64,000 nt of DNA, taken from Planotetraspora mira (GTDB lineage: Bacteria; Actinomycetota; Actinomycetes; Streptosporangiales; Streptosporangiaceae). The notes under the pieces were generated by a model. The model saw nothing but the letters and a program-made list of their open reading frames with translations, was not told the origin of the DNA and ran no database searches. The stretch covers positions 124,001 to 188,000 of the forward strand of contig NZ_BOOO01000019.1 of assembly GCF_016863275.1 (NCBI RefSeq), written 5' to 3'. Below, piece after piece: positions 27,677 to 36,330 of the stretch (the first letter of the stretch is position 1; each line of letters begins with the position of its first letter). Both the position numbers and the translations under genes were made by a program.

Positions 27677-28621
27677 ATGGCCACTCTTCGAGCACTCGAG
27701 TGCCTCGTGGCCTTGGTCGACACCGGATCGGTGACCAAGGCCGCAGCGGAGCTGCACATGTCCCAGCCCGCGCTCTCACATCAGATCGCCGCCCTGGAGC
27801 GGGAACTGGGCACGCCCGTCGTGGAGCGCCTGTCGCGCGGCGTCCGGGTCACGGCCGCGGGACGCGCCGCCGCAGGCGAGGCCCGCGTCGCGCTCCAGGC
27901 CGCGGCTCAGGCCGTCCATCTGGGTCGCGAGGTCGGCGCGGGACGCACCGGCCGGCTCCGGATCGCCTGCGCCGAGACGATGACCGCCTGGCTCCTGGTG
28001 CCGGTGTTACGCCGGTGGCGCGCCCGCCGTCCCGATGTTCACCTGGACCTGATGGAGTTCACCAGCACGGATCGCATGGTCGAGCGGCTCGAGGCGGGCG
28101 GCGCCGACCTGGTGATCGGCCCGCGGCCGACCGGAACCTCCGCGCACGTCGAGGTGCTCGGCCAGGAGGAGATGGTCGTCGTGGCGCCTGACGGCCACGG
28201 TTTCGCAGCCGAAACCTCGATCGCCCCCGCGCGGCTCTCCGCCGAGCCGTTCGTGCACTACGACCCGGAGAACGGGCTGGCGGTGTGGGTGGACCAGTTC
28301 GCCGCCGGGCATCAGGTCGCGCTCACACCGGTGTTGCGGACGCGGAGTCCGCGGACCGCGGCGCAGCTCGCGGGGGCCGGGATGGGCGTGACCATCGTGC
28401 CCGCCTCCGCCCTCATGAGCCGCCCGTCCGGCGTGGTACGCCCACTGAGCCCGCCCGTCCATCGTGACGTGGTCGCGATCATGGCGGCTCCCACCGACAA
28501 GCTGGCCCGGCGGTTCGTCGCCGATCTCCAGCGGCGCGGGATTCCCACGGCCGGTCCCGAAGTGCGGACCGCGGCAGACGGCGGCGGCCTGGCCGTTCCG
28601 GATCAGTCGACCGGCGCCTGA
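27677..28621 (+). CDS. LysR family transcriptional regulator
   Basis: The 314-residue protein has the LysR winged helix (residues 1-60, SVTKAAAELHMSQPALSHQI, the recognition region). The two-lobed effector domain starts near residue 90 (GRLRIACAETM) and ends with the LysR-type segment LAGAGMGVTIVPASAL. Divergence from the MOSC-reductase gene and a palindrome between them make that gene its probable target. The ATG was chosen over TTG two codons earlier because a -10 box lies six bases upstream and no ribosome site exists. The tail overlaps the convergent CGNR gene by 19 bases. Confidence 0.92.
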   Translation: MATLRALECLVALVDTGSVTKAAAELHMSQPALSHQIAALERELGTPVVERLSRGVRVTAAGRAAAGEARVALQAAAQAVHLGREVGAGRTGRLRIACAETMTAWLLVPVLRRWRARRPDVHLDLMEFTSTDRMVERLEAGGADLVIGPRPTGTSAHVEVLGQEEMVVVAPDGHGFAAETSIAPARLSAEPFVHYDPENGLAVWVDQFAAGHQVALTPVLRTRSPRTAAQLAGAGMGVTIVPASALMSRPSGVVRPLSPPVHRDVVAIMAAPTDKLARRFVADLQRRGIPTAGPEVRTAADGGGLAVPDQSTGA

Positions 28622-29124
28622 CGCGCCCTCTGGTAGTGCCGCCGGGCCTTCATCCTGTTCCCGCAGGCGGCCATCGAGCACCAACGGGCCTGATTGGTCT
28701 TGCTGCGGTCGAGCAGGAAGAGGTGACACTCGCCGTTGGCGCACGGCCTGAGCCGCCCCGGCTTCGCGCTTTCCAGGGCGCTCCAGGACAGGACGGCTCT
28801 GACCGCCGACGCGCGCTCCGCCGGTGCGTCGAGAGACCATTCCACCCCGTGCTCCGACACGGCAGGACGGTAGACGACCCCTTCGAGGAACGGCGCCAGG
28901 ACGGTCGGCGGCCGCTCACCGCGTACGACCGACTGCAGCGCGTCCCGCGCCTGCCGCGCCGCCTCCCAATCGTCGTGCGACCCGGATCCTCCTCGTTCCC
29001 GTAGCCAGACGCGGGCCTCGGCGGCGTCGCTCAAATGGTCCTGAAGTACGCCGTCGACGAGCGGCGTGCTGTTGAGCAGGTCCAAGAGTGCGTCTTCATC
29101 CGCCCGCGTCGTGGGAACGTACAT
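28603..29124 (-). CDS. CGNR zinc finger protein (ABATE domain)
   Basis: The 173-residue protein has an N-terminal ABATE-type helical domain and a C-terminal zinc finger with two C-x4-C pairs (CANGEC and CSMAACGNR). The CGNR motif that names the family is followed by a basic segment RMKARRHYQR that could bind DNA. These are putative transcription factors in actinomycetes, often divergent from a hydrolase or oxidoreductase they may control. Here the neighbour is the alpha/beta hydrolase. The ATG is preceded by AGAGAGGTTAGAG. Confidence 0.88.
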   Translation of the reverse strand: MYVPTTRADEDALLDLLNSTPLVDGVLQDHLSDAAEARVWLRERGGSGSHDDWEAARQARDALQSVVRGERPPTVLAPFLEGVVYRPAVSEHGVEWSLDAPAERASAVRAVLSWSALESAKPGRLRPCANGECHLFLLDRSKTNQARWCSMAACGNRMKARRHYQRARQAPVD

Positions 29125-29144
29125 CTCTAACCTCTCTTCTTTAT

Positions 29145-29174
29145 TTGACAGGTTACACCTTGCCCTGATTTGCT
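29145..29174 (+). promoter_or_regulatory. Candidate promoter of the alpha/beta hydrolase gene
   Basis: TTGACA (29145-29150) is followed after 18 bases by TTTGCT (29169-29174), a perfect -35 with a poor -10. The region is an AT-rich patch between the divergent CGNR and hydrolase genes and contains the small inverted repeat AGGT-TAC-ACCT at 29150-29160, a possible CGNR protein site. Confidence 0.4.
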
Positions 29175-29207
29175 TCTAACCATCCAAACAACTCATGGGG
29201 GTTAGTC

Positions 29208-30068
29208 ATGGTGAACGTCCACCACCGTTACGCGACCGTGCAGGGCCGGCGGCTCTTCTACCGGGAGGCCGGACCGGCCGACGCGCCGGTGCTCGTGTTG
29301 CTGCACGGCTTTCCGACCAGTTCGTTCATGTTCCGCGACCTCATTCCGGCCCTGGCGGACCGTTACCACGTCATCGCCCCCGACCACCTGGGCTTCGGGC
29401 TGTCCGACGCGCCGTCCGTCGACGAGTTCGACTACACCTTCGACGCGCTCACCGAACTGACCGAGGGTCTGCTGAGCCAGTTGGGGGTCTCCCGCTACGC
29501 CATCTATGTCCAGGACTACGGCGCCCCGATCGGGTGGCGGCTCGCCCTGAACCGGCCTGACGCGATCACGGCGATCATCACCCAGAGCGGCAACGCCTAC
29601 GAGGCCGGATTCGTCGAGAGCTTCTGGGAGACCGTCTGGGCCTACCAGCGCGAGCAGACCCCGGAGACCGAGACGGCCATCCGGCAGGCCCTCACCCTCG
29701 ATGCGATCAAGTGGCAGTACGTCACCGGGGTGCCGGACGAGACCGTCGTCAGCCCGGACACGTGGCATCACGACTTCGACCTGGTCTCACGCCCGGGCAA
29801 CGACCGCGTCCAACTGGCCCTGTTCCTGGATTACGCGACCAATCCCCCGCTCTACCCGCGCCTGCAGGAATACCTCCGCTCACGGCAGACGCCTCTGCTC
29901 GCCGTCTGGGGACAGGGCGATGAGATCTTCGGCCCTCCGGGCGCTCTGGCCTTCGCCGACGACCTGCCCGACGCCCGGATCCGCCTCCTCGAGGGTGGTC
30001 ACTTCCTCCTCGAGAGCGCACTGGACGAGGTCACCGACCTGATCCGAACATTCCTCGCCCAGGTGTGA
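29208..30068 (+). CDS. Alpha/beta hydrolase (epoxide hydrolase / haloalkane dehalogenase-like)
   Basis: The 286-residue protein has the oxyanion motif LLHGFPTSSFMFRDL and an Asp nucleophile in VQDYGAPIG (near residue 103), the type used by epoxide hydrolases and dehalogenases rather than esterases. The acid lies in WGQGDEIFGPPG and the base in EGGHFLLE. The start follows GGGGGTTAGTC. Its TGA lies inside the first copy of the 53-bp-period repeat array that fills the gap to the convergent gene. The natural substrate is unknown. Confidence 0.9.
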   Translation: MVNVHHRYATVQGRRLFYREAGPADAPVLVLLHGFPTSSFMFRDLIPALADRYHVIAPDHLGFGLSDAPSVDEFDYTFDALTELTEGLLSQLGVSRYAIYVQDYGAPIGWRLALNRPDAITAIITQSGNAYEAGFVESFWETVWAYQREQTPETETAIRQALTLDAIKWQYVTGVPDETVVSPDTWHHDFDLVSRPGNDRVQLALFLDYATNPPLYPRLQEYLRSRQTPLLAVWGQGDEIFGPPGALAFADDLPDARIRLLEGGHFLLESALDEVTDLIRTFLAQV

Positions 30069-30514
30069 TCATGCACAGGTTCGTGGATTGCCCGCCCGAG
30101 CAGCAAAGACTCCCGCCGTGATCATGCACGGATTCGTGAGCTGCGGGCACGACCAGCGCAAACTCCGTTCGTGATCATGCGCACATTCGAAGGAACGGTC
30201 CCTGAACTGCGCCGACGTCATCCGTGATCATGCAAAGTCGCGGATGTGCGAACAATGCCGTCCCAGATGTACAGCGGGCCGAGTCCGACATTGCATGATC
30301 ACGAACCGTGATTCCCCAGCTCGCCGGCCCCCCACCCGAACCCGCGCATGATCACGGAGAGGGTCTTCGCTGGTCAACCATATAGTTCACGAACTTGTGC
30401 ATGATCACGGTTAAAGTCCGGGCAGGTCGGAGGGGCCTTATGCGAATGTGTGCATGATCACGAAGAGAGTCTTCGCTGGTCAACCACATAGATCACGAAT
30501 CTATGCATGATCAC
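30065..30514. repeat. Array of nine 11-bp motifs at exact 53-bp period, inverting in the middle
   Basis: GTGATCATGCA (position 11 is G in one copy) occurs forward at 30065, 30118, 30171 and 30224. The reverse complement TGCATGATCAC (first base C in one copy) occurs at 30292, 30345, 30398, 30451 and 30504. Every step within each arm is exactly 53 bp, about five helical turns, and a 57-bp centre separates the arms. The 42-bp parts between motifs are degenerate copies of each other when read in motif orientation: RTTCG follows at fixed distance, and GACCAGCG with AAGACTC recur. Units at 30356-30408 and 30462-30514 are 46/53 identical. The outermost motifs contain the stop codons of both flanking genes. 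I do not recognise this element. Confidence 0.95.
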
Positions 30515-31604
30515 GATCAACGTCTTCGCCGTGGGTGGGGGGGAGGTCGTTGAGTTCGAGCAGCCTGGTCACTGCTTGCTGCGCGGTCACGATGTCCTCC
30601 AAGGCTCCCGGCACTCCCGTGAGGGGTGGTACGCCGGAGGTCACCATCGCGTGGAAGGCCACGAGTTCATGTTCGAAGGACGGGGTGACGTCGCTGAACG
30701 CCGTCCGCCCTTCCGCGCTCACGTCGGTGAGCCGGGTGGACGCGCCCAGCAGGTACGGCGTGGGGAAGACCATCTCGAACGTGCCGGTGGCATGGTGCAC
30801 AGCCACCGTTTCCCGGTAGGCAGGGTAGTCCTCCAGGTAGTGCCAGTGGATGGCATAACGTCCACCGGCACGCAGCGGGCCCGCCATCTCGACCGAGCGC
30901 CCGCCCGCTCCCGGCCAGGTCGTCACGTGGTCGACGCCCGACGGCCCGCCCGCGAGGAGACGCAGCAGCGACAGGTCGTGGCAGATGCTGTTGAGGATGG
31001 TCATGTAGAGCCCGCGCGCCTCGGGCGGGGCGTCCCCGATGGCGGCGCGGATCAGCTCGTCCTCCTGAGCCCGCAACCTGTCGAGAACCTCAGCGGGCAC
31101 GTCGGCGGGCGGTTCGGAGAGCCGGGCGAACGCGAGCTGAGACCGGTCGCTCGGATGCAGCACGGTCACCTGGACGGCACGCACGTCGGCGGCCCGTCCG
31201 GCCACCCGCTGCACCGCGGGGTCGTACTGCTTCATGTACCCGACCATCAGCCGGGGCCGCCCGGGATCCTCCAGCTCCGCGATCTCGGCCGCCTCCGCGC
31301 GGGTGTAGGCGAGAGGCTTCTCGCACAGTACGGCGTAGCCCCGGCGGAGCGCGTCGACGACCACGCGCCCGTGCGAGCCCGACGTCAGCACCAGCACGGC
31401 GTCGAAGCCGCCCGCGTCGAGCATCTCCGTGACGTCGGTGTACCGTCCTGCCACGCCGTACCGGTCGGCCATCCGCGCGGTCAGGGAGGGCGACAGGTCG
31501 CAGAGGGCGACCACCTCGAACAGGTCGCCGCGCCGCTCCAGCAGGGGCAGGTGCACCGTCTGCGCGATGACACCGAGCCCGGCCACCGCCACCTTGAGTC
31601 TCAC
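30501..31604 (-). CDS. Gfo/Idh/MocA family oxidoreductase
   Basis: The 367-residue NAD(P)-dependent sugar oxidoreductase has the N-terminal loop AGLGVIAQTVHLP, the catalytic-site motif CEKPLAY near residue 95 and the usual C-terminal beta-sheet domain. Family members oxidise or reduce ring hydroxyls of sugars and cyclitols, including C3 oxidation of glycosides. The start is GTG and overlaps the TGA of the isomerase gene by four bases. The last codons (GAT CAT GCA TAG) lie within the repeat array. It is the last gene of the leftward sugar operon. Confidence 0.92.
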   Translation of the reverse strand: MRLKVAVAGLGVIAQTVHLPLLERRGDLFEVVALCDLSPSLTARMADRYGVAGRYTDVTEMLDAGGFDAVLVLTSGSHGRVVVDALRRGYAVLCEKPLAYTRAEAAEIAELEDPGRPRLMVGYMKQYDPAVQRVAGRAADVRAVQVTVLHPSDRSQLAFARLSEPPADVPAEVLDRLRAQEDELIRAAIGDAPPEARGLYMTILNSICHDLSLLRLLAGGPSGVDHVTTWPGAGGRSVEMAGPLRAGGRYAIHWHYLEDYPAYRETVAVHHATGTFEMVFPTPYLLGASTRLTDVSAEGRTAFSDVTPSFEHELVAFHAMVTSGVPPLTGVPGALEDIVTAQQAVTRLLELNDLPPTHGEDVDRDHA

Positions 31605-32473
31605 AGGCCCACGCTCCTCAGAAGGTCCCGGTTGGCCCGCTGGTCGGCGAGGATCGCGCCGAGATCCTGGCCGGTGGCGGGCGCGTCCTGCTCGATCACG
31701 ATCCAGCCCTGGTAGCCGACCTCGCGGAGCACGTCGGCGAAGCCGGCGATGTCCACCTCGCCCCGTCCCAGCGCGGGGAAGCAGCCGTTCGCCACCGCCG
31801 TGGTCAGGTCGCCGCCCCGGGCGAGGACCGCACGGTCGGCGTCCTTGACGTGGACCTGCGTCACGCGACCCGACCAGGCCCTGAGCGCGGCGACGGGGTC
31901 GCCTCCCGCGAGCCAGAGGTGGCCGGTGTCGAGGCAGATCCCGACGTCGGTGAGCTCGAGGAGCCTCTCGACGTCCTCCGCCGTCTCCACGTCGGTGCCG
32001 AGATGGTAGTGGAAGGCCGGTTCCAGCCCGGCCTCACGGCACACGTCGGCCGCGGCCTGCACACGGGCGGCGAACTCCGGCCAGTCCTCAGCGGCGATCC
32101 CGGGGGCCGCGCCTCCGGGACGTGCGAACCTGGCGACGTTGCTCGGGCAGGCCAGCGTCGGCCTGGGGGCGAAACGCGGGTCGTCCACGGGGACGCTCGC
32201 GAACACCTCGAGCGCCGCCCGCAGTCCGGCGAGGTCGGCGTCGAACCCGGCGGCGTCACCGTATCTCAGGTCGACCCAGCCGCCGGCCAGGCCGAGCCCT
32301 GCCCGCGCGAGATCGTCCGCCCGCAGGTAGCCGATCGGGCCGGAGTCGACGCCGTCGTATCCGGCCTCGGCCATTCCGGCGAGCAACTCGCCCGGGCCGA
32401 TCAGGTCGGTGTCGTGCCGGTAGATCCCGAAGTTCACGGGGGCGCTCGCCACCCGTGTCGTCGTGACTTCCAA
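31601..32473 (-). CDS. Sugar phosphate isomerase/epimerase (TIM barrel, AP endonuclease 2 family)
   Basis: The 290-residue TIM-barrel protein has metal-ligand strands typical of the xylose-isomerase-like family: FHYHLGTD, CLDTGHLWLA, VHVKDAD and IVIEQD. TTG is the likely start because GGAGGA lies five bases upstream in the mRNA and no in-frame ATG exists nearby. It lies 14 bases after the GH2 stop and overlaps the Gfo/Idh start. Isomerase plus Gfo/Idh pairs often act together on keto-sugars or inositols; the substrate here is inferred only as a glycan-derived sugar. Confidence 0.9.
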   Translation of the reverse strand: MEVTTTRVASAPVNFGIYRHDTDLIGPGELLAGMAEAGYDGVDSGPIGYLRADDLARAGLGLAGGWVDLRYGDAAGFDADLAGLRAALEVFASVPVDDPRFAPRPTLACPSNVARFARPGGAAPGIAAEDWPEFAARVQAAADVCREAGLEPAFHYHLGTDVETAEDVERLLELTDVGICLDTGHLWLAGGDPVAALRAWSGRVTQVHVKDADRAVLARGGDLTTAVANGCFPALGRGEVDIAGFADVLREVGYQGWIVIEQDAPATGQDLGAILADQRANRDLLRSVGL

Positions 32474-32487
32474 GAGACTCCTCCGCT

Positions 32488-36330
<3,843 letters not shown>

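Follow-up and report, generated by a model that had tools for sequence, protein, structure and literature searches.

REP/BIME sequences and their RAYT (TnpA_REP) enzymes form the so-called REPtrons, in which one chromosomal enzyme gene lies beside copies of a dispersed extragenic repeat. To our knowledge, REP/RAYT is the chief case in bacteria where a domesticated enzyme is linked to repeats dispersed outside genes; the title of one paper (PMC3733652) ascribes GTAG/CGTC tags to REP sequences. Mycobacterial MIRU-type repeats are intergenic tandem units of a length similar to that of the units described here; we know of no inward two-arm design or partner enzyme for them. According to PMC8266576, the RAYT enzyme and the REP repeat co-evolve by group. 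Two further papers describe the AbiEi antitoxins of type IV toxin-antitoxin systems as proteins that bind inverted repeats (PMC7319586) and MTES_1575 as a novel Vsr-family REase (PMC3710099).

The array studied here lies at positions 30065–30514 of a 64-kb stretch of DNA (hereafter the window). We consider it rather probable that this array is a single member of a repeat family that is dispersed and host-resident, has its partner nuclease-like gene elsewhere in the genome and works in a REP/RAYT-like manner. Here too the repeat is extragenic, dispersed and present in high copy number (739 exact motifs and 379 motif pairs with 40–44 bp between the motifs in G000, the genome of the window), and an enzyme gene is flanked by its own repeat (in eight of nine array-bearing genomes, G074 being the exception). 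In contrast, RAYT is an HUH/Y1 transposase, whereas the partner found here matches Vsr/MTES_1575-type REase and AbiEi models, and REP sequences are palindromes folded as single strands, whereas the present units form phased tandem arrays on two inward-facing arms. The hairpin-palindrome feature of REP was lacking, as the units showed no helix-like covariation and a single arm folded like shuffled sequence. The first-pass annotation of this DNA had stated that the array does not match REP layouts; this holds at the sequence level, but REP/RAYT is nonetheless the closest functional analogue.

The partner protein shares with AbiE systems an AbiEi-type N-terminal region, matched by PADLOC AbiEi models in 11 of 11 members, but this region is fused here to a nuclease domain. 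At the flanked loci displayed the gene stood alone between the arrays, and no adjacent toxin (AbiEii included) was recognised; the five neighbours identified with Pfam at four loci were P450 (twice), GDP-mannose dehydratase, ClpX and RelA/SpoT. With the Vsr/MTES_1575/DUF559 proteins it shares the Pfam MTES_1575 domain, present in 11 of 11 members, and no published link of such domains to dispersed repeats was found among the matches listed in the open-access PMC literature. The array differs from CRISPR in that its 42-bp bodies share a 27-bit consensus, its arms are inverted and its two adjoining genes encode a hydrolase and an oxidoreductase, not cas products. It differs from iterons and plasmid origins in that many loci are present genome-wide and the genes beside the window array are not replication genes.

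Among the matches listed in the open-access PMC literature, no description of the repeat family or of its nuclease partner was found, and the papers listed as containing the motif strings looked, by title, like primer or unrelated matches. Both the enzyme class and the hairpin repeat that define REP/RAYT are absent here. With middling confidence we propose an actinobacterial class of repeat-propagating element in which an AbiEi-Vsr nuclease would sit between, read and multiply its own helically phased arrays, with hundreds of units seeded at gene 3' ends and with motif and period (about two to six turns) re-evolving by lineage. If this is true, a second system of this kind, with an unrelated nuclease and a double-stranded, helically phased substrate, would mean that the arrangement evolved more than once, part of the large group of unexplained AbiEi/DUF559-like genes would gain a candidate function, and many natural protein-motif pairs would be available for reading how a DNA-recognition domain shifts its specificity. 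The action of the arrays as 3'-end boundaries would also become testable.

The nine-motif array of the window

A motif scan of the 64-kb window gave nine matches to GTGATCATGCA at 30065–30514, seven of them exact and two with one mismatch (GTGATCATGCG, at 30171 and 30345). These were all the matches with up to one mismatch in the window, whereas shuffled windows gave a mean of 0.66 and a maximum of 3, and none of 100 shuffles reached nine. The left arm (30065–30234, + strand), delimited by motif and body scoring, comprises four motifs and three 42-bp bodies: motif 1 (30065–30075), the outermost, which includes the TGA stop (30066–30068) of the left gene; motif 2 (30118–30128); motif 3 (30171–30181), with one mismatch; and motif 4 (30224–30234), the innermost. 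The right arm (30292–30514, − strand) comprises five inverted motifs and four 42-bp bodies: motif 5 (30292–30302), the innermost; motif 6 (30345–30355), with one mismatch; motif 7 (30398–30408), whose body shares 83% identity with the motif 9 body; motif 8 (30451–30461); and motif 9 (30504–30514), the outermost, which coincides with the final codons of the right-hand ORF (stop at 30501–30503). Between the arms lies a 57-bp centre without conserved units (30235–30291). All seven within-arm steps measured exactly 53 bp. The nine motifs, the 53-bp steps and the 57-bp centre reported in the first-pass annotation were thus confirmed by the scan, and its reflection about position 30263 was arithmetically correct. 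The dyad symmetry that it described does not amount to a strict mirror register, since arm-to-arm unit similarity was sporadic.

The 42-bp bodies between the motifs were also conserved, with the consensus CAGGTTCG-N14-GACCTGCG... The seven internal bodies scored 26.2 to 33.7, whereas scores across the window averaged −43.2 (sd 12.3), and no body followed the innermost motif of either arm (scores of −25.5 after motif 4 on the left and −33.6 after motif 5 on the right). Each arm is built of n motifs with n−1 conserved bodies. The two arms face inward between two convergent genes, which were identified with Pfam as an alpha/beta hydrolase (Abhydrolase_1; 29208–30068, + strand) and a GFO_IDH_MocA oxidoreductase (30501–31604, − strand). 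Because the left TGA falls within motif 1, and because the right gene ends in codons that cross motif 9, the convergent gap is wholly filled by the array.

A repeat family dispersed in Planotetraspora

The two-motif pattern that gave the 379 pairs in G000 occurred 84 to 719 times in four congeners and was absent from the 26 other genomes searched. At least 80 named loci from four species were recovered, all of them Planotetraspora among the matches listed, and most other genomes of the class held 0–14 single motifs. The genome-wide element predicted from the window alone was borne out by the pairs in G000, which often lie between convergent genes; the spacing was neither unique to this locus nor unconserved in relatives, the pairs being found genome-wide and at orthologous sites. 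In the sampled loci, 434 steps of 50–56 bp were measured (412 of 53 bp, 16 of 52, 5 of 54 and 1 of 50), in addition to 23 irregular steps of 13–112 bp. Elements with fewer than three motifs or near a locus end were left out of the arm and element counts, in which 125 of 132 arms had 3–5 units and 90 elements fell into three kinds: 42 with two inward-facing arms, 45 with a single arm, and 3 with a single + arm plus one stray − motif. These last three were the ones not in plain inward order among the 45 elements with motifs on both strands. The centre gap was exactly 13 bp in 16 of 47 two-arm elements. The information content was 22.5 bits for the motif and 27.2 bits for the body.

Genes around the elements were called with a simple codon-score gene finder. 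A co-directional gene lay outside 87 of the 132 arms. For 77 of them the start of the first motif was at −4 (20 arms, in which the TGA of the motif is the stop codon) or between +7 and +44 relative to that stop (57 arms); 43 further arms pointed at the 5' side of an opposite gene. Over 360 kb of G000 plus 400 kb of G074, arrays occupied 15 of the 100 convergent gaps, 29 of the 434 tandem gaps and 1 of the 99 divergent ones. With regard to the transcription-end structure suggested earlier, the 3'-end placement is real, but a strict terminator polarity was rejected because some arms also face the 5' sides of genes. Extra motifs were seen 18–35 bp outside the first regular unit, beside the stop, where they break the 53-bp rule (L101–L118, G000:C1: 22285, 270253; L266 1161–1222). 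At L026, L033, L036 and L087, single inward-facing arms were present on both sides of an ordinary gene, and some of the gaps that hold these arms look divergent (L033, L036).

Twelve of the 13 elements of one 360-kb stretch of G000 were present at orthologous sites in G003, all 13 in G004, and eight of the nine with covered sites in G002, and the number of units at orthologous sites changed between species. The sole G000 element missing from G003 (G000:C1:60118) was not a clean case of insertion, and therefore no transposition junction was seen. At this site the GTGA of the array provides the left-hand gene with its stop; G003, which has no array there, shows a different end to the reading frame and carries an additional neighbouring gene.

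The motif core was also present, at different spacings, in other families of actinobacteria. Of the 250 family genomes searched, 23 had a motif triple; leaving aside those with one or two stray hits, they were five g1 genomes, one g69 genome (G074), two g44 genomes and five g75 genomes, the last with 4 to 108 triples. In the class, pairs of GTGATCWTGCA were detected in 7 of 394 genomes, among them G280 with a period of 22 bp, G400 and G488 with about 32 bp, and G282 and G341 with irregular spacing. The tail that follows the core differs genus by genus. The abundant arrays of G074 (L141–L160) have the tail TTCC in place of TTCG. In G198 (g75; L193–L212) the outermost unit takes the specialised form GTGATCTTGTAGTTTGTCGCA, and in several elements the centre motifs nearly touch, which gives GTGATCATGCAATTGCATGATCAC-like palindromes; de novo repeat detection in this genome recovered the same family and no second one. 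Motif counts were raised in G308 (24) and G323 (35), where the copies frequently formed inverted pairs at a distance of 49 bp, and a G323 homologue of the partner gene described below (C60:41924–42760) has a motif about 160 bp upstream. A three-motif array lies beside a DUF222-HNH endonuclease gene in G341 (L229 1501–3061). Viral contigs gave 61 stretches with the pattern, none of them with an encoded relative of the partner protein.

A nuclease-like gene between inward-facing arrays

In the genome of the window, the partner gene (G000:C30:192057–193022) encodes a 322-residue protein and lies between inward-facing arrays. This type of gene was discovered at three loci (G400, G488 and G280), in each case between inward-facing arrays; the query was taken from the flanked gene in G488, and those of G400 and G280 were found likewise. 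When nine array-bearing genomes were tested, eight had inward-facing arrays on both sides of the best hit, whereas none of the 14 weaker hits (13 genes) in the same genomes was flanked or had a motif. With the three discovery loci set aside, G282, G341, G000, G003 and G198 are independent cases in favour and G074 is one against. A search of the family with the G000 protein listed 78 hits, 30 of which were examined with their loci. The ten best-scoring genomes all had the motif beside the gene (nine on both sides and G040 on one), and of the next 20 homologues 18 had no motif and two had a single motif with one mismatch. Gene neighbourhoods vary by lineage, the order P450, partner gene and GDP-mannose dehydratase being common to G000, G003, G198 and G098 (identified with Pfam in G000 and by alignment of the displayed part in the others). 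On these sequence comparisons, the partnership of gene and arrays seems highly probable, and the nuclease-like protein probably reads, and may maintain, the arrays. At L291 and L293 (G065 and G104), the motif beside the partner gene occurred as outward-facing pairs about 29 bp apart.

The protein consists of an AbiEi-like N-terminal region, predicted to bind DNA, and, at its C-terminus, a nuclease domain of Vsr/MTES_1575 type that bears an apparently intact signature, E...D...ExDG...H...D..RR...GW. In alignment A1 the residues E192, S193, D224, E235, D237, H242, D251, R254, R255, G262 and W263 were invariant. The Pfam search of the 11 members matched AbiEi_1 in nine, besides MTES_1575 in all, and no transposase family at E <= 0.01. 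The best Vsr match in a search of solved structures was weak (E 0.14), and a single-sequence structure model of residues 36–322 was unusable (pLDDT 38). In the phylogenetic tree, array-bearing and array-less genes clustered together with support, and 12 of the 13 weaker homologues in the tree fell outside this group; the array-less members were nested within it. The N-terminus was kept in 27 of 28 array-bearing genes versus 5 of 26 array-less genes (Fisher p 3e-9, a test that ignores phylogeny); for this comparison G027, G328, G535, G562 and G327 were counted as flanked by inspection, although their inward-array score was below 10, and G311, at a contig end, was left out. The array-less genes are thus mostly devoid of the N-terminus, which fits this region as a putative repeat reader.

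The lineages without the gene were also compared. In the Planotetraspora genome G002, no homologue was found among 129 candidates save one 70-position fragment in a 1517-aa frame, and two decayed motifs remain in its P450-dehydratase gap. The arms of G002 had a mean of 2.44 units (9 arms in 260 kb; decayed units may be undercounted), versus 3.89–4.39 in three sister genomes (Mann-Whitney p 6e-6, 55 arms). No homologue was found in G205, which has 18 triples, and just a weak partial hit in G211, which has four. In G098 the gene matches profile positions 1–113 only and is flanked nonetheless. G074 had 248 motif triples, no flanked homologue was found in it, and two motifs are left beside its dehydratase gene. 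These genome comparisons show that arrays are fewer or shorter in most of the lineages that lost the gene, and that gene and arrays are co-located, diverge together and are lost together, G074 being the one clear exception.

Several distant relatives of the gene in other families were flanked by inward tandem arrays of different words. Their periods were 21 bp (G542, G562), 22 bp (G582, G535, G470, G548, G528), 32 bp (G595, G327), 44 bp (G027) and 62–63 bp (G302, G365), and in G027, G562 and G365 more than one copy of the word was present on one side only. A profile search gave 120 genomes at E <= 1e-40, and 23 new loci were examined, 20 of which were scored. That its seven best genomes are those with GTGATCWTGCA pairs follows from the way the profile was built, each of the seven being one of its rows. 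An inward-array score of at least 10 was reached by 8 of the 20 distant relatives versus 1 of 259 ordinary genes, the other 12 relatives remaining below 10. A threshold of 5 was reached by 36 of the 259 ordinary genes. Same-strand word sharing reached 10 in 3 of the 259 control genes; of 20 array-less Streptosporangiaceae homologues, one (G203, with GC-rich words) likewise reached 10. The word CGCGGGTCA, read from the flanks of the G542 gene alone, served as an out-of-sample test: a genome-wide search gave 85 pairs in G542, and nine other genomes gave one pair in G296 and none in the remaining eight. Nearly all the G542 pairs were listed at 21 bp or at double this step, and the two elements with fetched surroundings filled convergent gaps, near the stops.

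In 14 lineages with regular spacing, which are not fully independent, the periods clustered close to whole turns of the helix (Rayleigh p about 5e-6 for a turn of 10.5 bp). G282 and G341 were left out of this test, and their irregular spacing indicates that whole-turn phasing is not universal. The recurrence of near whole-turn spacing with other motifs favours the assembly of protein on double-stranded DNA, and with it the same-face scaffold that the first-pass annotation had suggested. None of the results pointed towards the partition, replication or condensin-loading roles that it had also named.

Possible action of the arrays

In the reading that we prefer, motif and body together would form a binding site on double-stranded DNA, and the near whole-turn spacing would set successive protomers on one face, leading to a cooperative complex on each arm. 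To judge from the genomic associations described above, direct binding of the arrays by the partner protein is likely. With less certainty, cleavage or nicking at the arrays, followed by repair from another array, might add units and spread elements into 3' intergenic gaps; such nuclease-driven maintenance or spread is speculative, and we regard it as evenly balanced. As a secondary effect, the complexes bound there may keep convergent transcription units apart.

Separation of transcription units could also be the main role of the arrays, as 3'-end boundaries of benefit to the host where an array-bound protein (the nuclease-like protein as binder) blocks RNA polymerase between convergent genes, the spread of the arrays being incidental. 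The start of 77 of 87 arms at −4 or at +7 to +44 from the stop of a co-directional gene, the presence of arrays in 15 of 100 convergent versus 1 of 99 divergent gaps (29 of 434 for tandem gaps) and the conservation of positions across species are consistent with this explanation. However, the 43 arms that face the 5' side of an opposite gene and the divergent-looking gaps at L033 and L036 do not fit it, and tolerance of repeats in 3' gaps would yield the same placement. In addition, the loss of the gene in G002 together with array shrinkage at sites where the flanking genes persist suggests that the arrays are dispensable. As the principal explanation it is thus doubtful, and use of the boundaries by the host and reading by the nuclease could both hold.

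Pairing of the inverted arms at the RNA level, as a bidirectional terminator or an mRNA-stability hairpin, is very unlikely. The two-arm RNA of the window folded far better than shuffles (z −9.6), and relatives with conserved tails form long inverted repeats, but the good folding arises because the arms are inverted. The left arm alone folded no better than shuffles (z 0.02), one arm only is present in 45 of the 90 elements, and arm-to-arm similarity is out of mirror register. Helix-like covariation was absent among 321 non-redundant units (of 415), in which the strong dependences were mainly between neighbouring bases and the largest non-adjacent pairable excess (z 4.1, unit positions 49–52) lay outside any helix. 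Moreover, pairing has no need of an exact 53-bp spacing, an Rfam search of 28000–33000 gave no match, and no GC-rich hairpin with a T run (intrinsic terminator) was found in 30065–30514, the sole such site in 29900–30700 being at 30650. The regular near whole-turn spacing and the genome-wide distribution would suit sites for a nucleoid-organising or chromosome-segregation protein, the flanked nuclease gene being a bystander in one array. This is highly improbable, because the gene-array association recurs in different neighbourhoods and with different motifs, is shared by none of the 14 weaker hits and predicted the new genome-wide repeat of G542. Fluctuating unit numbers between species would be expected of inert expanding repeats without protein function, an explanation that is hardly credible given the information held by motif and body (22.5 and 27.2 bits), the 95% of 434 steps at exactly 53 bp and the rise of the same design with other motifs.

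A mirror-register hairpin was considered as a separate candidate and rejected, its outermost-unit match not being upheld over 50 two-arm sets. Within otherwise variable stretches of the unit, positions 14–15 and 44–45 showed mutual information of 0.38 and 0.36 bits, respectively.
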